Assembly (NCBI GenBank): GCA_024281135.1
Contig: JAMXLG010000109.1
Coordinates: forward strand, 1 to 10,509
Direction: 5' to 3'
Length of the DNA stretch: 10,509 nt
Source of the DNA: Vulcanimicrobiia bacterium
Lineage (GTDB): Bacteria; Eremiobacterota; Eremiobacteria; Baltobacterales; Baltobacteraceae
Numbering within the stretch: position 1 is the stretch's first letter; the number at the start of each line of letters is the position of its first letter. Under the pieces are notes generated by a model. It ran no database searches. It was not told the DNA's origin and was given only the letters and a program-made list of their open reading frames with translations. The translations under genes and the position numbers were made by a program. Positions 1 to 10,509 of this stretch are shown here, piece by piece.

Positions 1-131
1 GCTACATTCGAGTGCGATTCAGTGAGCGGTGGCGACGTTTGCAGCGGGCCGCCGCCTCCGCCGCTGCATGCGGCAAAAGTTATCGAACCAATGATGACTG
101 CCGCAACGGAGCGGCCCGGGAAAGCTAGCAT
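1..131 (-). CDS. Lipoprotein N-terminus, runs off the left edge (partial)
   Basis: Only the first 43 codons are inside the window; the frame stays open to the edge. The start is an ATG at 131-129, preceded on the minus strand by AGGAGA at a spacing of about six bases, a good ribosome binding site. The peptide is a classic lipoprotein signal: a short start with one arginine (R7), a hydrophobic core AAVIIGSITF, and a lipobox FAAC with the lipidated cysteine at residue 22. A run of serine and glycines (SGGGGG) and a proline/serine/threonine-rich linker follow. The product should be anchored in a membrane facing the periplasm or the outside. The glycine-rich start resembles those of the two EXORDIUM-like lipoproteins at 2092-3114 and 6568-7647, so it could be a third member, but no diagnostic part of the protein is visible and the function is unknown. 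Confidence 0.75.
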   Translation of the reverse strand, partial: MLAFPGRSVAAVIIGSITFAACSGGGGGPLQTSPPLTESHSNV

Positions 132-138
132 GAAAAAT

Positions 139-157
139 CTCCTGTGGTAAACAGGAG
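139..157 (-). promoter_or_regulatory. Hairpin covering the ribosome binding site of the left-edge lipoprotein
   Basis: Read on the minus strand, CTCCTGT (157-151), a five-base loop TTACC and ACAGGAG (145-139) form a perfect 7-bp stem. The AGGAG in the 3' arm is the ribosome binding site of the lipoprotein starting at 131. A further AGGAG lies upstream on the same strand (182-178) and could compete for the CTCCT arm, giving two mutually exclusive pairings. Direct reading shows the inverted repeat and its overlap with the binding site; a role in translational control is inference. Confidence 0.4.
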
Positions 158-287
158 CGAGCGTAGCGAAAGCGCGTCTCCTCAGCGTCTCAACTGCGAC
201 GCGCTTACAAGTAATGTGGTGGTTGGTTGCTGCGCTTACGTTTTTTCGCTCGCGAATGCGCCGCGGCAGCGCTCGACGTGCCTGGAG

Positions 288-1325
288 TTATGGCGAAGGG
301 CGCAGTTCGTAGTAGATGCCCCCGCTGCGCGAGACTTGCTTGAGATCCCGTCTCGGTGACGTCGGCGGGACGCCGGCAAATGCTGCAGCGGTATCTTGGA
401 GCACGGGAGGGTCGAGTAAGTAGCCGTGTCCGGTTTCATCGTCTTGCTTGAGGTAGCTTACATCGACGGTGTTGACTCCGCTGCACAAGATGAGATCACC
501 GCCGGCTTGCCCTGCTCGCTGGTTTCCGTGAATCTTTTCCGACTGCCGCAACGCTCTGTCGTTGTTCGAAACATATAGGAGCACCGGCGCCGAAGCGATG
601 GGGTTGGCCAGGGGCTTTCCGGCGCAGAGGTTAGAGGAAGTCAGCGCGCTCCGCAAGTCCGCGGTGGAGACGTCCGGCGCGAATAAGACGGCGCGTCCGA
701 GGCAGTTGTTGCAACCGCTACGACGGAAAACTGCAATCCCGTTGGTGACGAAGCGCGAACCTAAACTGTGGCCGGCGAACGAAACGGGCATGCCGGGAAA
801 CGCCTTAGTGATGTTGTCGAGGAACGTCGTGAAGTGAGGCATCGACCACCGCGCATTCGCCTCGTCCGTTTTATAGGCTAAGACGCTGGTCTTTCGTGCC
901 GGCCAAGAATAGACTATGACCGGGCCTGGAAACCGCAGGCCCTTTTGGAGAGCCATTGCAGTCTCGACAGCGGTGTTGAACGACGTGTAATAGCCGTGAA
1001 TGTAGACAAGAAGTTGGCGTGGACGCTTTGGTTCGAACCCGGCTCTTACCGCACTGATAAACGCCCGTTGCGATGAGCACCGCGATTCGTTGGTCTTGTT
1101 TACCGGCACCGAAATAACGCCCGCTGTGATCACGGGCTTGTGATTGGCATCAGTACCCCACTCACCGCTAAAGAGTTGATTATCGTTTAGTGGCTCGCGA
1201 TCCGTAATGAAGAAGATCGAACCGGGTCTCGCGGCGCACTCGGCGCTCGCAGGTGCATGGAGGAAAAGCGTAATGCCTAATACGCAAATGCCGAAAAGCA
1301 CGACGCGCTTCGGTCGAAGGTGCAT
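288..1325 (-). CDS. Secreted DUF900-type alpha/beta hydrolase
   Basis: This 345-residue protein is a serine hydrolase of the alpha/beta fold, closest in motifs to the DUF900 family; its substrate is unknown (esterase or lipase-like activity is the usual guess). Residues 1-28 form a Sec signal peptide (MHLRPKR, hydrophobic core, PASA), so it should act in the periplasm or outside. The strand and oxyanion region reads VYIHGYYTSF (residues 108-117), followed by VYSWPA near 138-143, both typical of the family. The nucleophile elbow is GHSLGS with Ser187, the acid is probably Asp256 in YVSNNDRAL, and the base His300 in ETGHGY, so the triad looks complete. The frame is open far upstream, but the upstream part runs antisense through the start of the HdeD gene and is low-complexity. 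I chose the ATG at 1325 because it starts the signal peptide; no strong ribosome binding site precedes it. It stands alone. Confidence 0.88.
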   Translation of the reverse strand: MHLRPKRVVLFGICVLGITLFLHAPASAECAARPGSIFFITDREPLNDNQLFSGEWGTDANHKPVITAGVISVPVNKTNESRCSSQRAFISAVRAGFEPKRPRQLLVYIHGYYTSFNTAVETAMALQKGLRFPGPVIVYSWPARKTSVLAYKTDEANARWSMPHFTTFLDNITKAFPGMPVSFAGHSLGSRFVTNGIAVFRRSGCNNCLGRAVLFAPDVSTADLRSALTSSNLCAGKPLANPIASAPVLLYVSNNDRALRQSEKIHGNQRAGQAGGDLILCSGVNTVDVSYLKQDDETGHGYLLDPPVLQDTAAAFAGVPPTSPRRDLKQVSRSGGIYYELRPSP

Positions 1326-1455
1326 AGGTTGGATTCTTTTGATCCACAGGATGCCGGTACACCTGTCAGAGCCAGCTAATTCAGGAGGGCGGCTGGCTGC
1401 TCCCACCATTGGTGCGGTGATACACTTTCTAGGCGGGTGTTTAGGAGGAGTTCTC

Positions 1456-2016
1456 ATGATAGAGGCAGTTGCGAACCGTTGGTGGGTTTTTCTCGTGCGC
1501 GGCATCGCTGCGATAATCTTCGGGATCATCGCCTTCGCGTGGCCCGGGATGACGCTGCTTGCACTGACGCTGGTTTTCGGTGCGTACGCGTTTGTTGACG
1601 GCATCTTCGCACTAGTTGCGGCACTCGCCGGTCTCGGCGGATCGCGCTGGTGGGCGTTGCTGCTCGAAGCCATCGTAGGGCTGGTTATAGCGTTCTACGT
1701 CTGGACCGAACCGGCGACCAGCGCCACCGCGCTTGTATACGCCATAGCGATCTGGGCAATTATTACCGGGGTGATGGAAATCGTGTCCGGCCTGCAGTTG
1801 CGCGATCTTATCAGCAATGAATGGATGTACATCCTCGCCGGTATCGCGTCGATTGCGTTCGGCATTTTGGTCTTCCGCGACGTAGCGTCGGGAGCAACCG
1901 CCGTTGTCTGGTTGATTGGGATCTACGCGATCGTCTTCGGCATTCTAGAATGCGGGCTGAGCTATCGATTGAATCACCTGCGTTCGGCGGCGCAGTCAGC
2001 CCATCGAGCGACGTAG
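1456..2016 (+). CDS. HdeD family six-helix membrane protein
   Basis: A 186-residue inner-membrane protein with about six hydrophobic segments (near residues 11-29, 33-57, 66-84, 88-112, 123-141 and 148-169). The arrangement is threefold repetitive: the RGIAAIIFGIIAFAWP type of hairpin recurs as EAIVGLVIAFYVWTEP and AGIASIAFGILVF. This pattern, the length and the small-residue helices are those of the HdeD/DUF308 family, linked in Escherichia coli to acid resistance at high cell density but of unproven mechanism. The start is fixed by a near-perfect ribosome binding site, AGGAGGAG, five bases before the ATG at 1456; an in-frame ATG at 1207 would add a hydrophilic leader antisense to the hydrolase gene and is rejected. 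It is divergent from the hydrolase, is followed by a strong terminator, and appears monocistronic. A stress-related membrane role is inference from the family. Confidence 0.9.
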   Translation: MIEAVANRWWVFLVRGIAAIIFGIIAFAWPGMTLLALTLVFGAYAFVDGIFALVAALAGLGGSRWWALLLEAIVGLVIAFYVWTEPATSATALVYAIAIWAIITGVMEIVSGLQLRDLISNEWMYILAGIASIAFGILVFRDVASGATAVVWLIGIYAIVFGILECGLSYRLNHLRSAAQSAHRAT

Positions 2017-2050
2017 CGAGAACGGTTCAATTCCCGTTGGAGCTACCACA

Positions 2051-2074
2051 AAGGCCCGCTTTTGCGGGCCTTTT
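2051..2074 (+). terminator. Rho-independent terminator of the HdeD gene
   Basis: A perfect 9-bp stem, AAGGCCCGC (2051-2059) and GCGGGCCTT (2064-2072), closes a TTTT loop. The 3' arm runs into a TTTT tail. It begins 34 bases after the HdeD stop. The minus-strand gene at 2092-3114 converges on it, but its transcript would have a poor U-tract here (CCTTTGTGG), so the terminator mainly serves the plus strand. Confidence 0.88.
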
Positions 2075-2091
2075 CGTTACCGGCTGTCGGT

Positions 2092-3114
2092 TCAGTCGAC
2101 GCAGCCGTGAACTGCGTTTGAGTACTCACGTTGTATTTCGAAGTTATGCCCGCTCAGCGAAATAATGACAAAGGGATTGAGCCGGCAGAGGTCGCCGATC
2201 TCGCTCGGATAGGCCGGGTTCGGATTGGACCATCCGCTGGGCGGATCGGGATCTGTAATTGATTCGAAGTATTCGTGCGACAGAGTTGAATCGGTTGAAT
2301 CTGTCAGTTGACCATTGGGCGGAGGCTGCGGCCCGACCGGCGCTATCGTGTCGGATGTTCTGCAACCTGCGACATTTTGGAACGGCTCGACGCTAAAGAG
2401 CACATGACCTACTGCATCTGCAAACGTCACACTTGCATGATACGCGCAAAAGGCGAATGTGGCTTGATCATTTGGTGAATAGCAGGTTCCTGCGCTCGTG
2501 CACGTGTCATACCCCGAGGGCAGGAAGAAATGATAGATGTGGCCGTACCCGCTTCCAGAGATCTTTGCCGCAGCGTGGACGAAACTCTCGATGTCGCTAA
2601 GCGGCACGACTTTATTCGCGTAGGCCTTCGTGGCTGAAAAGTTCGTACCGGTTGTATAGCGACCGTTTGTCGTCGCTCCGACGTATTGATCCACAACGTG
2701 GATAAACGTGCTGGCGTTGAGGTCGTTCATGAAGCCGACGGGGTTGCCCCAAGGAGCGCTTGAAGTCGCGTTGAGATAGATGTTGTGAGAGACGACCGTT
2801 TTAAGGACGTGACCGCCACCGAACTTGAGATCGGCAGGGTAGATCACGCTCATCGGCTCAGAACGCCCTGATGTCTTAAGCACAGGTAGAACGTGGTAAC
2901 GGTAACTCAATACGCGAGGCGGGGTTGCTGCGGCGAGACCGGAGAGGTCGACCGTCTGTGAATCAGCCGCACCGGCGGACATCGATTTTGTCGTTCCTTG
3001 CGATGATGGAACAACGCCCTGGCTTCCGCCTCCCGAACAGCTGGTGAGAATCACGCCGGCAAGCGCAAACGTCAAAGCAAGCGCGCAAAATGCGCGAAAC
3101 CCTATGATCTTCAT
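2092..3114 (-). CDS. EXORDIUM/Phi-1-like lipoprotein, copy A
   Basis: A 340-residue lipoprotein and a clear paralog of the protein at 6568-7647. The signal peptide ends in lipobox LTSC (Cys26), followed by SGGGS and a linker to about residue 75. The conserved part holds YPADLKFGGGHVLKT (92-106), VDQYVGATT, HIYHFFLPSGY, a cysteine-rich FCAYHASVTF, then TLSHEYFESITDP (277-289) with an HExxE motif (His280, Glu281, Glu284), EIGDLC (305-310) and a C-terminal QREYSNAVHGC. The order gGGxvL, HExxE plus (D/N)P, EI(G/A)DLC and a final Q-x-x-W/Y segment with cysteine matches, from memory, the plant EXORDIUM/phosphate-induced protein 1 family (Pfam Phi_1), whose biochemical function is unknown. HExxE could bind metal, so a peptidase-like activity is possible but unproven. 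The ATG at 3114 is preferred over the GTG at 3129 because GAGGAG sits five bases upstream of it. Confidence 0.8.
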   Translation of the reverse strand: MKIIGFRAFCALALTFALAGVILTSCSGGGSQGVVPSSQGTTKSMSAGAADSQTVDLSGLAAATPPRVLSYRYHVLPVLKTSGRSEPMSVIYPADLKFGGGHVLKTVVSHNIYLNATSSAPWGNPVGFMNDLNASTFIHVVDQYVGATTNGRYTTGTNFSATKAYANKVVPLSDIESFVHAAAKISGSGYGHIYHFFLPSGYDTCTSAGTCYSPNDQATFAFCAYHASVTFADAVGHVLFSVEPFQNVAGCRTSDTIAPVGPQPPPNGQLTDSTDSTLSHEYFESITDPDPPSGWSNPNPAYPSEIGDLCRLNPFVIISLSGHNFEIQREYSNAVHGCVD

Positions 3115-3143
3115 TTTTACTCCTCGCACATATCACAACGGAA

Positions 3144-3158
3144 CGCGACGAAGTCGCG
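3144..3158 (-). repeat. Inverted repeat in the leader of EXORDIUM-like copy A
   Basis: CGCGAC (3144-3149), loop GAA, GTCGCG (3153-3158) form a perfect 6-bp stem about 20 bases upstream of the ribosome binding site at 3120-3125. A GATAAT -10-like hexamer lies just upstream on the minus strand (3169-3164), but I see no matching -35. Whether the hairpin is in the transcript depends on the true start site. Confidence 0.35.
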
Positions 3159-3252
3159 CACTTATTATCGTTTGTGCAATGCGTCGACGACGGGGACCAT
3201 CGTCGGTAAGTTGATGGGTAGCTGGACTGCCCGAATAGGATGTAACAATGCG

Positions 3253-3280
3253 TGAGCTTGCAATATACTACGCAAGCTCA
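3253..3280 (-). terminator. Hairpin downstream of the thiamine-binding protein gene
   Basis: TGAGCTTGC (3253-3261) and GCAAGCTCA (3272-3280) form a perfect 9-bp stem with a ten-base loop, starting nine bases past the stop of the minus-strand gene at 3289-3591. Position and strength suit a terminator or 3' end-protecting hairpin, but on the minus strand no U-run follows it, so it may not terminate on its own. Confidence 0.45.
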
Positions 3281-3288
3281 TTTCGTAT

Positions 3289-3591
3289 TCAAGCTCGTTG
3301 TTTGCGCAGTTCCTCTACGTGCTCGACTTTCGACTCGAGGGTCTGCGGAGCGTCGATGCGATCGTCAATCTTTAGAAGGCTGCCGACACGCACGGCGCCG
3401 CGTTCGTGGCAGCGGCGGTGAATGAGGGCAAGCGCTTTGCAGATCGTCTCGACGTCCCCCTCCATGTTCGTTGCCATCGGGGTAAGCTGATAGCGAATGC
3501 CCATTTCGTCGAGCACGTCGAGTGCGATCGCTACGTATTCGCGTATGCCATGGCCGGATTCGGCGCTGATGCTAAGACTTGCGGTAGCCAT
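3289..3591 (-). CDS. MTH1187 family thiamine-binding protein
   Basis: A 100-residue cytoplasmic protein of the MTH1187/YkoF-type thiamine-binding family (Pfam Thiamine_BP, formerly DUF77). The hallmark is YQLTPMATNMEGDVETI (34-50), where the TPMxTxxEG segment forms the ligand pocket, followed by the helix with ALIHRRCHERGA and the strand VRVGSLLKIDDRID (67-80). The family fold is a small ferredoxin-like sandwich that assembles into tetramers. Members are often found beside thiamine or hydroxymethylpyrimidine transport genes, but no such gene is visible here. Length is normal. The ATG at 3591 is the only sensible start, though no clear ribosome binding site precedes it. The role may be thiamine carriage or buffering; the pathway is not shown by the context. 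Confidence 0.87.
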   Translation of the reverse strand: MATASLSISAESGHGIREYVAIALDVLDEMGIRYQLTPMATNMEGDVETICKALALIHRRCHERGAVRVGSLLKIDDRIDAPQTLESKVEHVEELRKQRA

Positions 3592-3683
3592 GCATGTGTA
3601 GTACCGGGCGCACTCTCAGGATTCCGCCGCGCCGGCTGCAGTATGTTCAATGCAGCATCCTCGTTTTTTCTCGGCGGTGCATC

Positions 3684-4262
3684 ATGAGGTTTTTCCTTGC
3701 GCTCATCTGCTTTCTATTCTTGACCGCGTGCGGCGGACAAGGCCTTACGCCGACGCCGACAGAGCAAACGCAGCTCTCTACGCTTTCGACCGGCACCTCG
3801 ACGAACGAGCAATTCTCTCAAAGCGTCGCTCACCGCGGCTTCGGCCGCTTCTTACGTGGTGTGACGCTGACCGAGCAACAGCAAACGCAACTACGGGAGC
3901 TCGTACAACAATTTCGGTCAGCCCATCCGCTCGGAAGCCGCTTCGATCCCGAAGCGCTTCGGACGCTCCATCAACACATGCTCGCCGTGCTGACGCCGGA
4001 GCAGCAAATACAGGTACAGCAGAATCTCGAGCGTTGGCGCAGCGCCATGCGCGCGATCGCTCTCACCGATCAGCAAAAGGCGCAGATCCACCAGTTGATC
4101 GAGCAGTATCGGCAGAGCCATCCTCGCGGCAGCGCGCCCGACCCTGAAGCGCGCCGTCAGTTGCACGAAGAAATCCATAACGTCTTGACTCCCCAGCAGC
4201 AAGCACAGCTGCAGCAATCGTTCGCGTCGCCCGCACCCGTTACGACGCCACAGCCCCATTGA
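3684..4262 (+). CDS. Lipoprotein with two tandem Spy-like LTxxQ repeats
   Basis: A 192-residue lipoprotein: MRFFLALICFLFLTACGG has a lipobox LTAC with Cys16. After a threonine/serine-rich linker come two copies of a unit of about 60 residues. Copy one starts LTEQQQ (62-67) and ends near LTPEQQ (103-108); copy two starts LTDQQK (127-132) and ends near LTPQQQ (168-173), an exact offset of 65 residues. Each is a predicted helical hairpin with an internal (S/A)HPxGS and DPEAxRxLH segment. LTxxQ motifs mark the Spy/CpxP group of periplasmic chaperones and stress sensors, so a periplasmic chaperone-like or metal-sensing role is a reasonable inference. The frame is open from 3594, but that leader is not signal-like; the ATG at 3684 begins the signal peptide, with weak GGCGGTG upstream. 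The stop overlaps the next start by one base (TGATG), suggesting translational coupling to the flavoenzyme. Confidence 0.82.
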   Translation: MRFFLALICFLFLTACGGQGLTPTPTEQTQLSTLSTGTSTNEQFSQSVAHRGFGRFLRGVTLTEQQQTQLRELVQQFRSAHPLGSRFDPEALRTLHQHMLAVLTPEQQIQVQQNLERWRSAMRAIALTDQQKAQIHQLIEQYRQSHPRGSAPDPEARRQLHEEIHNVLTPQQQAQLQQSFASPAPVTTPQPH

Positions 4263-5395
4263 TGGATGCCGTCGACGTCGCTGTCGTCGGCCTAGGTGGA
4301 ATGGGAAGCGCTGCGCTTGCGAATGTGGCTGCGCGTGGCGTTTCCACGATTGGCATCGAGCAATTTACACGCGGCCATCTTCTCGGTTCGTCTAGCGGCA
4401 AATCGCGAATGATTCGGAAGACGTATTTCGAACACGCGAACTACATTCCGCTGTTGATGCGCGCGTACGATGCGTGGGAAAAGTTGGAGAGTTTCACCGG
4501 CATTCCGATTTTTCGAAAAACGTCGGTATTACTTGCGGGTTCTCCCGAAAGCCCGGTGCTTCGCGGGGCGGCTAGCAGTGCTACGGCGTACGATCTTCCC
4601 GTTGAGCATTTGAGCGCACGCGACATTCGGACTCGTTTCCCGATGATGCAACCACTCGATGACGAGGTCGGTCTGCTCGAACCCGACGGCGGCATCATCA
4701 TGCCGGAAGCTGCGATCGAGGGGTATCTTCGCGTTGCCGAAGAGTACGGAGCCCGGATGCTGTTCGACTCTCCGGTGGTGGGATGGAATCATAGTCCCGG
4801 TTCGTCGTCACTAGAAGTGCGACTTACGGACGGGACGTCGATCGTGGCGTCGCGGCTTATCGTATGCGTGGGCGCCTGGTGGAGTACGTTCGAAGACGAA
4901 GCGATGCCGCTTCACCTACAAAGAAACGTGCAGCTCTGGTTTCGCGCGTCGTCGCCTGCATTTTTCATCGGGAAGTGTCCTTCGTTCGTTCTCGATCGAG
5001 AGGGCTTTCCCCAAGCACTGTACGGCTTTCCCGATTACGGAGGCGGTGTGAAGGCGGCATTTCACGGAGTCGGCGAGACGGTCGATTCGCCCCAGTATGT
5101 TGACCGTTCGGTACATCAGAGTGATATCGAGCCCGTGCGCGACGCACTGGCTTCGTGGATGCCCGGAAGCAGCGCGAAGTATATTGAGGCCAAAGTCTGT
5201 ATCTACGAACTTACACCCGATGGGCACTTCGTTATTGGAACGCACCCGAACGAATCGCGCGTTATCGTAGCCGGAGGCTTCTCTGGGCACGGGTTCAAAT
5301 TTGCTTCCGTCGTCGGGGAGTTGCTCGCCGATCTTGCGCTGGACGGGGGGACTACGTACGATATCGCGTTTCTCTCGCCAAGCCGATTTGCGTAA
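4262..5395 (+). CDS. Monomeric sarcosine oxidase-like / N-methyl amino acid oxidase
   Basis: A 377-residue FAD-dependent amine oxidase (DAO fold) close to monomeric sarcosine oxidase (SoxA) and N-methyl-L-tryptophan oxidase (SolA). Such enzymes oxidise N-methyl amines with oxygen, giving the amino acid, formaldehyde and hydrogen peroxide. The dinucleotide-binding motif is VVGLGGMGSA (8-17). Arg49 and Arg52 in GKSRMIRKTY, Tyr254 in YGFP, Lys264 and His268 in GGGVKAAFH, and Cys313 in KVCIYELTPDGHF line up with the catalytic and flavin-linking residues of Bacillus sarcosine oxidase (Arg49, Arg52, Tyr254, Lys265, His269, Cys315), so the flavin is probably bound covalently through Cys313. GGFSGHGFK (338-346) is the family's C-terminal FAD segment. 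No signal peptide: cytoplasmic. The start ATG overlaps the stop of the LTxxQ lipoprotein; a TTG one codon earlier is less likely. The exact substrate cannot be told from sequence. Confidence 0.88.
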   Translation: MDAVDVAVVGLGGMGSAALANVAARGVSTIGIEQFTRGHLLGSSSGKSRMIRKTYFEHANYIPLLMRAYDAWEKLESFTGIPIFRKTSVLLAGSPESPVLRGAASSATAYDLPVEHLSARDIRTRFPMMQPLDDEVGLLEPDGGIIMPEAAIEGYLRVAEEYGARMLFDSPVVGWNHSPGSSSLEVRLTDGTSIVASRLIVCVGAWWSTFEDEAMPLHLQRNVQLWFRASSPAFFIGKCPSFVLDREGFPQALYGFPDYGGGVKAAFHGVGETVDSPQYVDRSVHQSDIEPVRDALASWMPGSSAKYIEAKVCIYELTPDGHFVIGTHPNESRVIVAGGFSGHGFKFASVVGELLADLALDGGTTYDIAFLSPSRFA

Positions 5396-5409
5396 TCGCG
5401 TCTCAATGG

Positions 5410-5862
5410 CTAAGGGATCGGCACACCTCTTGCTAGTGCGCCGGGCAAAACGGTAGTTTCAAAAAACTTGAGCGCATTTCCAGCAATTTCAACGACGGGC
5501 GTGGTGCGAAGTAATTGCAGTTCTTGCGATTTAGTTGTACGAGGTTCGTGTGTGTACGAATGTTCGCTGAACGTTCGCGGAAGATCATCGACGATCACGA
5601 AAAATCTATTGCTTTCGTTCGTAACCGTAAACTCAGTGTTGCGTAGATCTAGGCAACTGCAATAAGACAGATCCTGTTGGTCGAGGCTGCGGACCCATTG
5701 CTTGTGCGGATCAACGGAGATGAAATGCCGAAGGGCGCCGATCAATGCGAGAAACATGCCGAAGTGATAAAGGAAGTCGTCGCGTAAGCCAGAGGCCTGC
5801 GCTTGATGCATCCCGTCTATGGCACGGTTGGCCCATCCGATCTTTTGATCCGTCGCGGACAT
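5410..5862 (-). CDS. Uncharacterised 150-residue protein
   Basis: I do not recognise this protein. It begins MSATDQKIGWANRAIDGMHQ, continues with an apparently helical segment (DDFLYHFGMFLALIGALRHF) and then a mixed part with alternating polar and hydrophobic residues (TEFTVTNESNRFFVIVDDLP) ending ARGVPIP. No signal peptide and no clear membrane span. The codon pattern reads as coding, and no better gene covers the stretch. The start is uncertain: the frame is open back to a TTG at 5904, with a GTG at 5880, but the ATG at 5862 is the first ATG and I chose it although its ribosome binding site is weak. It converges on the sarcosine oxidase gene, with only 14 bases between the stops. It could be a fast-evolving or accessory protein; no function is claimed. 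Confidence 0.6.
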   Translation of the reverse strand: MSATDQKIGWANRAIDGMHQAQASGLRDDFLYHFGMFLALIGALRHFISVDPHKQWVRSLDQQDLSYCSCLDLRNTEFTVTNESNRFFVIVDDLPRTFSEHSYTHEPRTTKSQELQLLRTTPVVEIAGNALKFFETTVLPGALARGVPIP

Positions 5863-5980
5863 CAGCTGACTCAACACTAACGACCGATGATTACTTGGAA
5901 GCAATCAAGATGACACGCCCAACCTGGACGCCGGCGATGGTCGACGCCTTTGACGCGGATATTGAGAGTTTTGCTCGACT

Positions 5981-6334
5981 CTAGGGATTGCCCGTGGATT
6001 GCGTATCGGTAGCCGGGCTATCGACATCAACGTCGCCTTGAGCGGGGCGTACTTGAACGTCGCCGCCGTAGCGTTCGAGGACAGCCAAAATCTGCGTTCC
6101 GTGTTCGGGGTCATCGACTGCAAGAATCGAGCCTTCGTCGTATGGGCCGAACTCCGAACCGAAGAGCTTATTCAAGGCGTCTTGCGCGTCTTCTTCGCCG
6201 GTTTTTAAGGGTTGAAGTACGACTGCCGATGTAGGAACTCCGATGCCGAGCAGTTCTTGTTGCGCTTTTTGCGCGTTATCGTCGCTCTGAAAATACGCCG
6301 TGAGCCGACCAGAAGTATAACTCGTGGAATCCAT
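5981..6334 (-). CDS. Small general-stress-type protein with acidic tail
   Basis: A 117-residue cytoplasmic protein. Residues 7-37 (TSGRLTAYFQSDDNAQKAQQ onward to VVLQPL) look like the beta-alpha-beta start of the heat-induced stress protein YflT / general stress protein 17M-like fold, in which a strand is followed by a helix that 'pairs' residues and a GIGVP-type turn. A second such unit seems to run from GSILAVDDPEHGTQILAVLE to VQVRP (about 68-98). The last 19 residues are acidic and low in complexity (DVDVDSPATDTQSTGNP), probably disordered. The start ATG is backed by GGAGAG six bases upstream. It lies divergent to the EXORDIUM-like copy B with 233 bases between. The family is common in stress-resistant bacteria but has no defined biochemical role; the assignment rests on overall pattern, not on a catalytic motif. 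Confidence 0.7.
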   Translation of the reverse strand: MDSTSYTSGRLTAYFQSDDNAQKAQQELLGIGVPTSAVVLQPLKTGEEDAQDALNKLFGSEFGPYDEGSILAVDDPEHGTQILAVLERYGGDVQVRPAQGDVDVDSPATDTQSTGNP

Positions 6335-6429
6335 CGCTTACTCTCCAGACCATATCTCGTTTCCGAAAGAATCCCGGCTAAAACGTGCCGGCGAGACGCT
6401 ATCCAAATCGTGCAAAGACTGCGAGTTTG

Positions 6430-6460
6430 TTGGCACTCGGTAGGCAGAATGGCTTAGAAT
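6430..6460 (+). promoter_or_regulatory. Possible sigma-70-type promoter of EXORDIUM-like copy B
   Basis: TTGGCA (6430-6435, five of six matches to the -35 consensus) and TAGAAT (6455-6460, five of six to the -10) are separated by 19 bases, slightly long. Transcription would begin near 6467 and give a leader of about 100 bases that includes the hairpin at 6528-6552. The call assumes a standard housekeeping sigma factor. Confidence 0.35.
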
Positions 6461-6527
6461 CGCTGCCCGAAAGGCGCAAACAATGCGCCGCGCACGCGCG
6501 GAAGTTCACCATCCCTATATAGGTGAT

Positions 6528-6552
6528 GGATTTGCGCTGTACGCGCAAATCC
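6528..6552 (+). promoter_or_regulatory. Stem-loop directly before the ribosome binding site of copy B
   Basis: GGATTTGCGC (6528-6537), loop TGTAC, GCGCAAATCC (6543-6552) form a perfect 10-bp stem. The ribosome binding site GGGAGGAGG starts at the next base, so the hairpin abuts but does not cover it. An imperfect inverted repeat centred on CTATATAG (6515-6522) lies just upstream. It could stabilise the message, act as an operator, or modulate translation; it has no U-run and is not a terminator. Confidence 0.5.
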
Positions 6553-6567
6553 GGGAGGAGGTTCTTC

Positions 6568-7647
6568 GTGAAGTCTTTTCCGTTTCTGCGTTTCTCATCC
6601 GCATTGACGATCATCAGTGCACTCGCGCTTTCCGCTTGCGGCGGCGGAACATCGGGAGTGCCGCTCGCACCCAGCGGGGCAACGCAGTCGCAGACTCCGG
6701 GTAACGGGACTGCGCCCTCCACATCGGGATCCTCGATTACATCGCAATCTATTACCGTGACACCAAAAGACCACGTGCTGCCGACAGCTAAGGCGAAGGC
6801 GCATTTGTACCTAACGAGTGCCGGGTACGCCAAACTTGCATCAGACCGCCGCACGCCTGAATCCGTTACCTATCCAATGGACCTGTCGTACTTCGGCGGT
6901 CCGTTCCTTAAAACGGCGAGGCTCTATAACGCGTTCGTCAACAGCAGCTCTTCTGCGTTTGCAAATCCTAACGGATTCGAGGAACATTTCAGCTACAGCA
7001 ACATGAGTCATATTCTCGACCAATATGTCGGGACGACGACGTCGAATCGCTACGATTGGGCCGGTGACGTAAAGGTCGGTTTTGCGTCGATTACCGGAAT
7101 TATCGGCGACGATCAACTCCTCGAGATCGTGCATGCCGTCGCGGCCGCAATCGGACCGAATGCCGGCCGCAAAAATATCTACAACATCTTCTTGCCGAAG
7201 ACACTGAACTATTGCAGCACAGGCTCGATCCTACCGCCCGGCTCGTGCAACCTTTTCCCGGGTAGCCCGAACCCGGCGTTCTGCGCATTCCACACTAGCG
7301 TTACGTTTAGCGATATCGGTGAAGTGCTCTTTACCTTCGAACCGACCATGGACATAGCAACCAGCGGGCTCACTTGCGCCGCCAACGCGAACGAACCGAA
7401 CGTCAAGACGCCGAACGGGGTGTTCGCCGACAGCACATATTCCACACTATCTCACGAGGTATCGGAGTCAATCACGGATCCCGAACCGAACAACGCCTGG
7501 TTCACGTTTACGAACCCGATCATCGCTGGTGAAATCGGCGATCTTTGCGCGTATCAGGGACAAACTGTCAATTTAGCGGGCAAAGCGTACTACATCCAAC
7601 GCGAATGGTCGAACAAAGTCCACGGATGCGACAACCTGCAACCTTGA
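6568..7647 (+). CDS. EXORDIUM/Phi-1-like lipoprotein, copy B
   Basis: A 359-residue lipoprotein, paralogous to the minus-strand protein at 2092-3114. The signal peptide ends in lipobox LSAC (Cys24) followed by GGGTSG and a long serine/threonine/proline linker to about residue 66. Shared blocks are YPMDLSYFGGPFLKT (102-116), LDQYVGTTTSNRY, a helix EIVHAVAAAIG, IYNIFLP, FCAFHTSVTFSDIGEVLFTFEP, DSTYSTLSHEVSESITDPEP (288-307) with HExxE (His296, Glu297, Glu300), GEIGDLC (321-327) and the C-terminal YYIQREWSNKVHGC. These match, from memory, the core of the plant EXORDIUM/phosphate-induced protein 1 family. Six or more cysteines outside the lipobox suggest disulfides in an exported domain. The start is GTG at 6568, six bases after a strong GGAGGAGG; an upstream ATG at 6523 would place a charged leader before the signal and is rejected. 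Monocistronic, ended by the terminator at 7668-7700. Confidence 0.82.
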   Translation: MKSFPFLRFSSALTIISALALSACGGGTSGVPLAPSGATQSQTPGNGTAPSTSGSSITSQSITVTPKDHVLPTAKAKAHLYLTSAGYAKLASDRRTPESVTYPMDLSYFGGPFLKTARLYNAFVNSSSSAFANPNGFEEHFSYSNMSHILDQYVGTTTSNRYDWAGDVKVGFASITGIIGDDQLLEIVHAVAAAIGPNAGRKNIYNIFLPKTLNYCSTGSILPPGSCNLFPGSPNPAFCAFHTSVTFSDIGEVLFTFEPTMDIATSGLTCAANANEPNVKTPNGVFADSTYSTLSHEVSESITDPEPNNAWFTFTNPIIAGEIGDLCAYQGQTVNLAGKAYYIQREWSNKVHGCDNLQP

Positions 7648-7667
7648 TCGTCTAGAAGTTACGTCCT

Positions 7668-7700
7668 AGAGAGGCCACCGATTCGCCGGCGGCCTCTTTT
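7668..7700 (+). terminator. Rho-independent terminator of EXORDIUM-like copy B
   Basis: AGAGGCC (7670-7676) pairs with GGCCTCT (7691-7697); inside it an A/C mismatch is followed by CCG (7678-7680) pairing with CGG (7687-7689) around an ATTCGC loop. The stem runs into TTTTTATTTT. It starts about 20 bases after the stop codon. Confidence 0.85.
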
Positions 7701-7707
7701 TATTTTG

Positions 7708-7749
7708 AAATTCATGAATTTTTCGCTTCAGAATCTATTCATTTCTGAA
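7708..7749. promoter_or_regulatory. AT-rich palindrome and inverted repeat before the cupredoxin gene
   Basis: A perfect 14-base palindrome, AAATTCATGAATTT (7708-7721), is followed by the inverted repeat TTCAGAA (7727-7733) / TTCTGAA (7743-7749). Both sit between the terminator of copy B and the cupredoxin start, in DNA clearly richer in A and T than the surroundings. They have the form of regulator binding sites. TAGCAT at 7753-7758 resembles a -10 hexamer and would place the transcription start on or next to the ATG at 7765; no good -35 is visible, which would fit an activator-dependent promoter. Confidence 0.4.
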
Positions 7750-7764
7750 TCCTAGCATCCGCGC

Positions 7765-8106
7765 ATGTTTCCCGTACTGCTACCGATTGTTCTTGCAACC
7801 GCGTATGCAATGGTTGCAGACAATACTCCCGATGCGGTATCGATTACCGCCGTGCCCAGCACTTTCACGCCGTCGACGATCACGCTTCATCGCGGCGTTA
7901 CGACCAAGCTCGTTTTCATGCATACTCAAGGCGTGCACGCAATAGAATCCGACGCGCTCGGAATTCCCAAGACCATCCTTTCGCCCGATAAGGATGTCAC
8001 GATCGACGTGACGCCGTCGCAGGATGGAACCTACGTCTTACGGTGTGAGATCGTATGCGGACCCGACCACGATTCAATGGCGCTCACCGTACATGTCGAA
8101 GGATAG
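7765..8106 (+). CDS. Free-standing CuA-type cupredoxin
   Basis: A 113-residue protein resembling the CuA domain of cytochrome c oxidase subunit II without its two-helix anchor. The N-terminus (FPVLLPIVLATAYAMVA) is hydrophobic and probably a signal peptide or membrane anchor, although it lacks the usual positive charge. The domain runs from about residue 24 to the end. His58 in GVHAIESDALGI corresponds to the first CuA histidine, and RCEIVCGPDHDSM supplies Cys94, Cys98, His102 and Met105 with the exact C-x3-C-x3-H-x2-M spacing of CuA sites. The full ligand set suggests a binuclear copper centre for periplasmic electron transfer; nitrous oxide reductase and oxidase partners are not nearby. An in-frame TAG four codons upstream fixes the start at 7765, and there is no ribosome binding site, pointing to a leaderless message. 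Its 3' end overlaps the start of the cytochrome gene, so the two are probably co-expressed. Confidence 0.83.
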   Translation: MFPVLLPIVLATAYAMVADNTPDAVSITAVPSTFTPSTITLHRGVTTKLVFMHTQGVHAIESDALGIPKTILSPDKDVTIDVTPSQDGTYVLRCEIVCGPDHDSMALTVHVEG

Positions 8107-9215
8107 CGAGGGCTGCCGCTATTGCGGCATTCGTGGTATTCGCGTCCGCCGAGTCTATACCGGCCGGCGCAATGCCGCCCTTCGCACAAGCATATCGCGC
8201 AAACTGCACGCTCTGCCATGTAGAGGTTCCGGCGCTCAATAGCTACGGCCGCTCCGTTCAGCGCAGTGGTTATGCGATTCTCGACCACCAGATATTGCAT
8301 CGCTCTTTGCCGGTCTGGATTGGCTTCAGCCCAGCCTTCGATTCGCAACAACAAAACGGCTCAAAACTTCAGGGCGGCAATGTTGCGGTTCACGCGGTGG
8401 GGCTCGCGGGCGACTTCTCTTATCACATTCAGCAGTGGCTCGTGCAGAACAACGTGCCCGGCGGGCTCGATACGGCATGGTTTGCCTACAACGGGCTCTT
8501 CGCGCACAGCGGCCACCTCTTTGCCGGCAAGATCGAAACGCCGGCGCCGTCGCCGTTTAGCCAATGGTTCGATTTATCGAACTTTGCGAGCGCGGAGATG
8601 ACCGTCGGCGAGCATCAATATCAGCTTGACGCAAACCGTTGGGGAAGCCGGCTCGCCTACGTGCACGGAGCACTTGACGTCGAAGCCGGTTGGTTGGGTT
8701 CGAGCGGCAACTTGGGCGGCACGAGCGATTTCACGAACGATACGGATAAGACGTTTCAGTGGAAGATCGCGCATGTCTCCGCTCAACGGACATCGCTCGA
8801 GTTCGGCGCCTTCGGTTCGCGCGGCAGTTTTCCGTTGCAAGAAGGTGGGACCGATCAATATTACTCGGTCGCGGCCTATGTCGAGCGAGACCCGCAACGA
8901 CACGTGCCGGGAATCTTTGCGCTCTATCAAGATACGTTTGACGGCAATCCGGGTCCGGGGCTCGGCGCGGCAGCCGGCAATGCGCTAACGTTCGAGCTCT
9001 ATCAAAACGCGTTCCATCAAAACGGTTTGTTTTCCGCGAGATTCGAGCGCACGAACGACGGATTGGGCAGTCAAGTGAAATCCGGTAATATCGACTTCGA
9101 ATATCACCTCGTGCGCTTCGTGCACCTCTATACCGAGGCCGCGTTCGCGCAAGGGAGTAAGCCGAGTTATCGATACATGCTCTGGTGGACGACGCCGCTC
9201 GAGCGCGTCCGGTGA
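8055..9215 (+). CDS. Cyc2-like monoheme cytochrome fused to an outer-membrane barrel
   Basis: A 386-residue exported protein. A basic start (RRIARA), a hydrophobic core (AAAIAAFVVFASA) and an AGA cleavage site near residue 39 form a signal peptide. The mature protein opens MPPFAQAYRANCTLCHVEVP with one heme c site, Cys51-Thr-Leu-Cys54-His55, followed by PALNSYGRSVQRSGY (59-73). This FAxxY-CxxCH-PxLNxxGRxxxxxGY pattern is that of the Cyc2 group of cytochrome-porin fusions and a wider set of related bacterial proteins. The remaining 300 residues have alternating polar and aromatic strands typical of beta-barrels (for example FSARFERTNDGLGSQVKSGN and the final YRYMLWWTTP). Cyc2 conducts electrons from outside iron(II) across the outer membrane; the same role here is inference. 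The start at 8055 lies 52 bases inside the cupredoxin gene in another frame; no later start codon leaves a full signal peptide. Confidence 0.78.
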   Translation: MRTRPRFNGAHRTCRRIARAAAIAAFVVFASAESIPAGAMPPFAQAYRANCTLCHVEVPALNSYGRSVQRSGYAILDHQILHRSLPVWIGFSPAFDSQQQNGSKLQGGNVAVHAVGLAGDFSYHIQQWLVQNNVPGGLDTAWFAYNGLFAHSGHLFAGKIETPAPSPFSQWFDLSNFASAEMTVGEHQYQLDANRWGSRLAYVHGALDVEAGWLGSSGNLGGTSDFTNDTDKTFQWKIAHVSAQRTSLEFGAFGSRGSFPLQEGGTDQYYSVAAYVERDPQRHVPGIFALYQDTFDGNPGPGLGAAAGNALTFELYQNAFHQNGLFSARFERTNDGLGSQVKSGNIDFEYHLVRFVHLYTEAAFAQGSKPSYRYMLWWTTPLERVR

Positions 9216-9221
9216 GGTGGG

Positions 9222-9884
9222 CTATGCGCCGCTGATCTCGTCTGTATCGCCGCCAATGCCGTTCGTGCGGAGAACCGCTTGTATCACCGGCAACGCGCCG
9301 CGCGCCATGAGCGCGTAGCCACGATCGGACGGATGGAAGCAGTCTTCCGCGAGATACCGGACGCCGTGATCGCGCGCGAGATTGGTAATCGCGAAGAGAT
9401 CGATGAACGTTGCTTGATGCGTCGCGGCTTGCTCGCGCATCGACCCGCTCAAGAGTTCGCACAGTGACGAAACGAATGGTTTTGCTTCGTCGGGGACGTG
9501 CGGAGTGACCGCGATGTTCGGTATTCCCGTTACGAAGAGCTGCGCCAGCGGAGCGGAAGCGCGAACACGTCCCAGCAGACGGGCGTACTGTTCGGCAAAT
9601 ATCGCGGGGTCGGTCGTGTTCGGCACATCATTTGCGCCCACCACCAAGAGCAATGTGTCGACCTCGGCCGGAATGCGCGACACCTGAAACATCGCGACGT
9701 CGTTCATCGTCGCACCCGGTACGCTCAAATTCGTAAATGAATGTTCCGCCGCCGCCTTCGCGAGCGCGCGGTAGATGATCTGCGTGAATCCGTTCGACGG
9801 CGTCGATGCTCCGGTTCCGTATCCCAGGCTGTCCCCGAGAACGGTGAGGTGGAGGCTTAGAACGTTCCCGTGCAGATCGCGCAT
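9222..9884 (-). CDS. SGNH/GDSL hydrolase
   Basis: A 220-residue serine esterase or lipase-like enzyme of the SGNH family. All four signature blocks are present: GDSLGYG with nucleophile Ser19, the glycine block in SVPGAT (Gly57), GANDV with Asn85, and DCFHPSDRGY with Asp181 and His184. The catalytic set is therefore complete, and the length fits the single-domain, thioesterase/arylesterase-like branch (TesA and relatives). There is no signal peptide, so it probably acts in the cytoplasm; substrate unknown. The ATG at 9884 is the only start that keeps the first strand (LHLTVLGDS); GGAAA lies roughly ten bases upstream, a weak ribosome binding site. It lies 143 bases downstream of the methionine sulfoxide reductase gene on the same strand, possibly but not certainly in one transcript. 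It converges on the cytochrome gene with six bases between the stops. Confidence 0.88.
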   Translation of the reverse strand: MRDLHGNVLSLHLTVLGDSLGYGTGASTPSNGFTQIIYRALAKAAAEHSFTNLSVPGATMNDVAMFQVSRIPAEVDTLLLVVGANDVPNTTDPAIFAEQYARLLGRVRASAPLAQLFVTGIPNIAVTPHVPDEAKPFVSSLCELLSGSMREQAATHQATFIDLFAITNLARDHGVRYLAEDCFHPSDRGYALMARGALPVIQAVLRTNGIGGDTDEISGA

Positions 9885-10027
9885 GATTTACAGATTTCCG
9901 GTGGCTGGCCAGAGGCGGGTTGCGCGCGAAAGTGCTCCACATACAGAGTACGTGAATACAGCGACATTCGTTTCCGGAGCCGGCAGAACGACCATGCCCT
10001 GCTCGTACCCAGATTAGACGGTCAAGC

Positions 10028-10495
10028 CTACGTTTGGGGGATGAATCGGAGAGCGAGGCCGTCGATGCAGTAGCGCAGATGCGTCGGCGCGGGGCCGTCG
10101 TCGAATATATGCCCAAGATGGCTGCCGCACCGTTTGCAGTGGATTTCGGTGCGTGGCTCAAACGCAAGTTCGTAGTCCGTGCGAGTTGCGGTCACCTTTG
10201 GAAGCACGTTCCAAAACGACGGCCATCCATCGCCGCTATCGTATTTGGTCTTCGAACTGAACAGCGCTTGTTCGCATCCCGCGCAGCGATACGTGCCCGG
10301 TCGCGATTCCTTGATCAACGCACTCGAGAAAGCGGGCTCGGTTCCGTTCTCGCGCAAGATGTAGTAACGGTCGTCACCAAGGAGTTTGTGCCACTCGGCG
10401 TCGCTGTGTGTTACCGCATAGCTGCTGTTTGCGCGGGCGGTGGCGGTGGCCAGCGCTGCTGCGCCGAGCGCGATTACGAACTGTGAGCGACGCAT
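10028..10495 (-). CDS. msrB: Exported peptide-methionine (R)-S-oxide reductase MsrB
   Basis: A 155-residue methionine-R-sulfoxide reductase. Residues 1-22 (MRRSQFVIALGAAALATATARA) form a signal peptide with paired arginines; the spacing to Phe is not a textbook Tat motif, so Sec or Tat export cannot be decided. The catalytic domain has the zinc-binding pairs Cys71/Cys74 (CAGC) and Cys120/Cys123 (CKRC), the family motif SGDGWPSFW (87-95), GSHLGHIFDDGP (124-135), and the catalytic Cys143 in RYCIDGLALRF, where most homologs read RYCINSxxLRF. It should repair oxidised methionine in periplasmic proteins. The start ATG at 10495 overlaps a TAA in TAATG, which could be the stop of a further upstream gene outside the window. 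An exported repair enzyme suits the oxidant-exposed, cofactor-bearing envelope proteins nearby, but a functional link is inference. Confidence 0.93.
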   Translation of the reverse strand: MRRSQFVIALGAAALATATARANSSYAVTHSDAEWHKLLGDDRYYILRENGTEPAFSSALIKESRPGTYRCAGCEQALFSSKTKYDSGDGWPSFWNVLPKVTATRTDYELAFEPRTEIHCKRCGSHLGHIFDDGPAPTHLRYCIDGLALRFIPQT

Positions 10496-10509
10496 TAGAC
10501 CGGAACCTG

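Follow-up and report, generated by a model that had tools for sequence, protein, structure and literature searches.

What would a CuA domain do without an oxidase? The question is raised by two overlapping genes on the forward strand of contig JAMXLG010000109.1 (assembly GCA_024281135.1), from a Vulcanimicrobiia bacterium of the phylum Eremiobacterota. The 10,509 nucleotides that were analyzed (positions 1 to 10,509) are referred to here as the window. The first gene encodes a small CuA-type cupredoxin and the second a porin-like protein with a single c-type heme motif, and an initial annotation made from the sequence had proposed that they form a minimal pair for extracellular electron transfer. 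I put at roughly 0.7 the probability that the two genes encode a two-protein outer-membrane electron conduit, in which electrons would pass from a donor to heme, from heme to CuA and from CuA to an oxidase, a reading that draws on sequence comparison and structural models. The features on which the argument depends are the following.

7765 to 8106, forward strand: CuA-type cupredoxin gene, 113 amino acids, a likely periplasmic electron carrier (open reading frame, Pfam, ligands, profile match)
8044 to 8079, forward strand: CuA ligand motif C-E-I-V-C-G-P-D-H-D-S-M, residues 94 to 105 (translation, alignment)
8055 to 8106, forward strand: 52-base overlap of the CuA and porin genes (open reading frames; shared with L001, the locus nearest to the window pair)
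8055 to 9215, forward strand: Cyc2-like porin-cytochrome gene, 386 amino acids, with a signal-like N-terminus, one c-heme segment and a predicted 16-stranded barrel (open reading frame, alignment, AlphaFold2, porin matches)
8205 to 8219, forward strand: CxxCH heme-binding motif, residues 51 to 55 (translation; present in 86 of 86 sequences)
8313 to 9197, forward strand: predicted beta-barrel, residues 87 to 381, 16 long strands (AlphaFold2; Foldseek and VIA-align)
8535 to 8636, forward strand: loop between strands 5 and 6, the position of porin loop L3, residues 161 to 194 (AlphaFold2 strand order)
8613 to 8615, forward strand: codon of His187, within Gly185-Glu186-His187 of the loop at the L3 position (translation, alignment)

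The CuA protein and the porin-cytochrome

Both open reading frames and their overlap were found where the initial annotation had placed them. His58, Cys94, Cys98, His102 and Met105 of the first product, the residues named there as metal ligands, make up the full CuA set with its spacing and are unchanged throughout the 27 aligned sequences, that of the window among them. Pfam matched the 113-residue protein to Cupredoxin_1 (5.2e-10, above the cut-off) and to COX2 (0.0059, below the cut-off). The first of these matches, together with the beta-sandwich modelled for a fused relative, L010 (block predicted local distance difference test score, pLDDT, of 86 to 97), identifies the fold as that of a cupredoxin. 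When a profile of the 27 CuA sequences was compared with solved structures, chains of cytochrome c oxidase subunit 2 ranked first (6pty, 2.3e-15; 2cua, 1.9e-14; the ba3-type 1ehk, 3.7e-14), and the ligands aligned onto those of the solved CuA domains; the protein compared singly gave only weak CuA matches. I take 6pty and 2cua to be Thermus proteins. The profile also matched nitrosocyanin (1.2e-5), which has one Cys ligand, not two. The usual CxExC motif has Glu or Gln at a position where the window protein, with C-E-I-V-C, has Ile. The signal peptide, judged by eye, has no basic n-region, those of the relatives being ordinary, and past this signal-like N-terminus there is no membrane helix, as expected from the earlier description of a CuA domain without oxidase helices.

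The second gene encodes 386 amino acids, or about 347 after removal of a signal peptide that was likewise judged by eye. Near the N-terminus lies a single CxxCH, within a heme segment that reads AMPPFAQAY-RAN-CTLCH-VEV-PALNSYGR. In an alignment of the window protein with 85 homologues, C51, C54 and H55 are each present in 86 of 86 sequences, as are P59 and L61, which give a PxL four residues after CxxCH. The longer segment that had been pointed out beside the single CxxCH, PxLNxxGRxxxxxGY (P59-x-L61-N62-x-x-G65-R66 ... G72-Y73), is invariant in 25 of 25 aligned porin-cytochromes. The protein found no sequence match in Pfam, NCBIfam or PDB, and the comparison of its profile with solved structures was likewise empty.

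After the heme segment the AlphaFold2 model of the window porin-cytochrome has 16 long strands, and the best structural matches of the barrel, by Foldseek and VIA-align, are 16-stranded porins, OprO and OprP among them. The fold is predicted to be a 16-stranded barrel of the outer-membrane type, and the first outcome that the initial annotation had named as refuting, a fold with no outer-membrane barrel, was therefore not obtained. Porins carry a constriction loop, L3, between strands 5 and 6, and the loop in that position of the model (block pLDDT 42 to 83) contains His187, present in 86 of 86 sequences, preceded by Glu186 in 77 of them. Other histidines are less well kept: His113 in 73, His124 in 76 and His154 in 77 of the 86. 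Its conservation and its place in the model make His187 the leading candidate to bind the heme as second ligand, which is a prediction and not a finding.

Recurrence of the pair and exchange of the carrier

Comparison with L001 gave 85% identity for the CuA protein (dN 0.10, dS 0.63) and 74 to 75% for the porin-cytochrome (dN 0.16, dS 1.36); both genes are under purifying selection. A first set of 30 loci came from a scan of genome contigs, two genomes supplying two loci each; 22 bear titles with Eremiobacterota, Eremiobacteria or Eremiobacter and 8 just "bacterium". The CuA gene lies immediately upstream of the porin gene in 22 of the 30 and is fused to the C-terminus of the porin in three (L008, L010 and L028), with L029 a broken fusion. 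In three more (L014, L015 and L020) a CuA gene lies no more than about 1.2 kb away but is arranged differently, and the sequence of L013 begins 200 bases ahead of the porin gene.

The survey was extended to 149 genomes of L001's phylum, Eremiobacterota, in a census that used profile boundaries and, after removal of 5 repeats from 90 stretches, counted 85 porin hits (E <= 1e-70). Here the CuA gene is directly upstream on the same strand in 56 of 85 cases and fused in 4, which is the opposite of the second outcome that the initial annotation had named as refuting, a survey in which homologues of the two genes almost never lie together. A cytochrome c is fused in 5. A cytochrome c-like open reading frame lies within 1.5 kb, with no adjacent upstream CuA, in 13, a number to be read with the proviso that such frames were chosen by a motif rule, with Pfam run on two (L070 and L064), and that those of the 13 with one CxxCH may include spurious frames. 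CuA also occurs within 1.2 kb, differently arranged, in two of the 13 (L057 and L088), and of the 56 cases in which CuA is upstream, 9 have a cytochrome c-like frame nearby as well. One further case has CuA within 3 kb otherwise arranged, and one is cut off by a contig end. The pair may be regarded as more than a product of chance, because it is under purifying selection relative to L001 and because it recurs widely. The overlap is another matter: in many relatives the porin gene starts at or past the CuA stop codon, and the 52 shared bases are a property of the window and L001, not of the whole family. Among the best 120 of 554 relatives, the taxa named by the source are all Eremiobacterota/Vulcanimicrobiota, with three of them checked, the remainder being plain "bacterium".

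The link to CuA weakens among more distant porin relatives. Automatic pairing, which is prone to mis-score porin frames extended upstream or hits that touch, found CuA adjacent to 9 of 17 porin hits with E from 1e-80 to 1e-44, whereas for the other 8 no CuA hit is listed on the contig. For the 49 listed hits with E from 5.1e-44 to 5.6e-31, the same procedure put CuA adjacent in one and beyond 3 kb in two. One of these weaker hits, L068, has a terminal cytochrome c domain instead, according to Pfam.

Fusion and exchange of the carrier, as read from the sequences, form the strongest argument that the porin heme would hand electrons to CuA. Three fused proteins (P0031, P0061 and P0108) have a C-terminal cytochrome c domain in place of CuA, and a fourth (P0070) has a tandem pair of CuA domains. 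Pfam confirmed the cytochrome c domain of P0031 and found three such domains in each of the neighboring proteins L070 and L064. In the model of the L010 fusion the cupredoxin follows the barrel and a linker (residues 392 to 414, pLDDT below 50). Since both chain ends of a porin usually face the periplasm, a carrier domain fused in this way would be periplasmic. The pattern suggests a single porin-cytochrome whose periplasmic carriers can be exchanged. The suggestion in the initial annotation that the CuA protein is a periplasmic partner gains support from the C-terminal fusion and from replacement by cytochrome c; the two proteins would be loaded with heme and copper, and electrons would pass between them.

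The same exchange bears on the idea that the protein is instead a porin for a substrate or metal, with a heme that is structural, gating or sensing, and that the CuA protein stores or chaperones copper instead of carrying electrons. The barrel does resemble transport porins in its structural matches. However, a domain whose place in the fusion can be taken by cytochrome c fits a redox carrier and not a copper chaperone, and every side-chain ligand of CuA has been retained. I consider this reading unlikely.

Several side observations concern the same families. L062, L078 and L079 have two CuA-porin pairs in tandem and in the same orientation, the second porin being diverged. A free, diverged CuA gene with the motif CAVYCGIGHGxM directly follows a fused CuA-porin gene in three loci (L028:7466-7816, L029:5069-5416 and L008:7449-7862); in the tree, CuA of this type branches off outside the CuA proteins that are paired or fused. 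A related protein family with members of about 590 amino acids (L068:1698-3467, reverse strand; L069:2744-4525, forward strand) has an N-terminal heme segment and a barrel, followed by a C-terminal cytochrome c domain and one more domain beyond it, as read and scanned in L068 alone.

Could the CuA protein nevertheless be a stray oxidase subunit II that lies beside a porin by chance? In databases the name "cytochrome c oxidase subunit 2" is given to many of its relatives, whether free or fused, and it has the ligand set and the cupredoxin profile in common with the CuA domain of subunit II (closest to the ba3-type, e.g., 1ehk). It differs from that domain in having no membrane helix, in not lying beside subunit I in the window, in the Ile that stands for Glu or Gln of CxExC, and in its phylogeny: 26 partner-type CuA proteins form one clade (support 0.893, branch 1.78), and nine subunit II proteins that come from the same set of loci lie apart from it. 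In several loci the CuA partner is accompanied by a distinct subunit II gene, and the 60 of 85 homologues that are adjacent or fused contradict a chance association. With no anchor helix, no COX1 in the scanned window proteins, COX2 below the cut-off and a separate clade, assignment to subunit II was rejected, and an accidental neighbor is hardly credible.

Relation to Cyc2 and to other published systems

How close is the porin-cytochrome to Cyc2? The profile of the window family, compared with 24 Cyc2-type sequences (Caballeronia L081, Methylocystis L082 and 22 from 120 listed hits), gave a match of 96.7% probability (E 3.4e-10), most evident in the heme segment, where the window protein and L081 alone are 33% identical over 45 residues. 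Cyc2 as set out in PMC8406198 (this and the other papers are cited from excerpts) has in common with the window protein a signal peptide, an N-terminal CxxCH, a PxL four residues on and a 16-stranded porin like OprO and OprP, which are its published templates; in the window protein this last element is predicted. The 386 residues, as encoded, also exceed the 365 that are the least for Cyc2. The published signature, AXPXFAR[Q/K][T/Y], is another matter, for the window has AMPPFAQAY and the family has Q (71), K (11) or E (4) in the Arg position of 86 sequences. ARQT is retained in the 24 Cyc2-type references, and the full signature is found in L081 and L082. Filing the protein as Cyc2 was rejected on account of the absent motif. 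It is Cyc2-like by architecture and not Cyc2, so the label "Cyc2-like" in the initial annotation was well chosen and "Cyc2" would be too strong.

A Cyc2 homologue is already known from one Eremiobacterota metagenome-assembled genome from acid mine drainage (PMC8357290), and a Cyc2-like protein in the phylum is therefore not new in itself. The element for which no published precedent was found in excerpts of the open-licence literature is the CuA partner. The pair of CuA and Cyc2-like genes, which the initial annotation did not recognize as described, was not found described there, and the excerpt of PMC8406198 describes no CuA partner or fusion of Cyc2.

The nearest arrangement in the excerpts is the rus operon of Acidithiobacillus, cyc2-cyc1-cup-coxBACD-rus, in which, as proposed here, an outer-membrane porin-cytochrome feeds electrons to a copper carrier in the periplasm and to an oxidase. 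Rusticyanin and AcoP, the free copper carriers of that system, are mononuclear (PMC10654088, PMC4059628) and are neither directly beside nor fused to Cyc2, whereas the carrier in the window is of the CuA type. Plasmids of Caballeronia sp. SBC1 (L081) and Methylocystis sp. MJC1 (L082) likewise have a porin-cytochrome gene beside genes for periplasmic carriers, but with the strict Cyc2 signature and with a high-potential iron-sulfur protein and/or c-type cytochromes as carriers. On the plasmid of the latter, a methanotroph, the Cyc2-type gene is annotated as a hypothetical protein and c-type cytochrome genes follow it (L082, 3336-6409). In Sideroxydans grown on magnetite, other cupredoxin proteins are expressed, from a separate gene cluster (PMC12016527, in excerpt).

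Proposed electron route

Electrons most likely enter from outside the cell by way of the heme, pass to CuA and go on to a terminal oxidase, with metal binding, direction and donor all inferred. The heme segment would lie in the barrel or at its periplasmic mouth, where His55 of CxxCH would hold the iron, probably together with His187 of loop L3. The heme would be reduced by a one-electron donor from outside, for which Fe(II) is a first guess by analogy with Cyc2. The CuA protein would dock on the periplasmic side, accept the electron and pass it to a soluble cytochrome or to the CuA/heme entry of a terminal oxidase. The periplasmic carrier would be an exchangeable module: a separate CuA, one or two fused CuA domains, or a cytochrome c.

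Oxidase genes near the porin are consistent with the last of these steps. A COX1 relative lies at most about 4.1 kb from the porin gene in 11 of the 30 loci (by BLAST clustering, with Pfam on L026 alone). COX1 (E <= 1e-40) is present in 127 of the 149 genomes, with 1 to 7 genes each, and the number of such cases expected by chance is estimated at less than one, a figure that is not a probability, since the loci are interrelated. These neighbors bear also on an outward conduit, in which CuA would supply the porin-cytochrome with electrons from respiration, for delivery to external acceptors such as Fe(III), humic matter or other cells. The anatomy of the pair leaves direction unfixed, and porin-cytochrome systems of the Mtr type can run both ways (PMC10734462, in excerpt). 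Against this, the oxidase neighbors point to electron input for oxygen respiration, and in known enzymes CuA is the point at which electrons enter oxidases (as in CoxB, PMC4059628, in excerpt). I consider outward flow unlikely.

Several results weigh against the inward conduit. Residues 27 to 61, the heme segment, were modelled with pLDDT below 50, so that their location in the barrel is tentative. The Cyc2 signature is missing. Neither CuA nor cytochrome c was found in the examined stretch in 5 of the 85 census cases, and for 46 of the 49 listed weaker relatives no CuA hit is listed on the contig. A COX1 relative is absent from the flanks, some of them short, in 19 of the 30 loci, and no oxidase gene was found among the scanned window proteins, over some 7.7 kb upstream of the pair and 1.3 kb downstream. 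Finally, the excerpt on cultured Vulcanimicrobium reports no lithotrophic growth on sulfide, thiosulfate or H2 and does not have iron among the donors it names (PMC9758169).

Taking all this together, I lean, if only slightly, towards a broader proposal: that Eremiobacterota (Vulcanimicrobiota) have their own family of one-heme porin conduits with a plug-in exit (free CuA, one or two fused CuA domains, fused or neighboring cytochrome c), that the CuA form is a natural free-standing carrier dedicated to extracellular electron transfer, and that His187 completes the coordination of heme within the barrel.

The rest of the window may be described briefly. Downstream of the pair, Pfam identified a GDSL lipase (9222-9884, reverse strand) and an exported-looking MsrB (SelR; 10028-10495, reverse strand), which have counterparts in the same order in L001 (75% and 81% identity, respectively); the genes tested upstream of CuA are not shared with L001. 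Two of the upstream genes (2092-3129, reverse strand; 6523-7647, forward strand) encode paralogous lipoprotein-like proteins with no Pfam match, 37% identical over 364 columns, with a SHE..ESITDP stretch and a C-terminal HGC in common. A DUF900 hydrolase (288-1673, reverse strand) and a DUF308 membrane repeat protein (1207-2016, forward strand) overlap, as listed, by several hundred bases on opposite strands, and probably one of the two starts has been called too far out.

To my knowledge, the hand-over of electrons from Cyc2-type proteins to the periplasm is poorly settled outside Acidithiobacillus. In some of the genomes considered here the porin is fused to its presumed partner, and there the hand-over could be tested on one polypeptide. 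The results also suggest that many Eremiobacterota genes labelled "cytochrome c oxidase subunit 2" are something else. If the proposed route is true, it would provide a candidate extracellular electron pathway for much of a barely cultured phylum, in which 117 of 149 genomes have a match to the porin family (E <= 1e-3) and at least 77 a match to CuA (E <= 1e-25).
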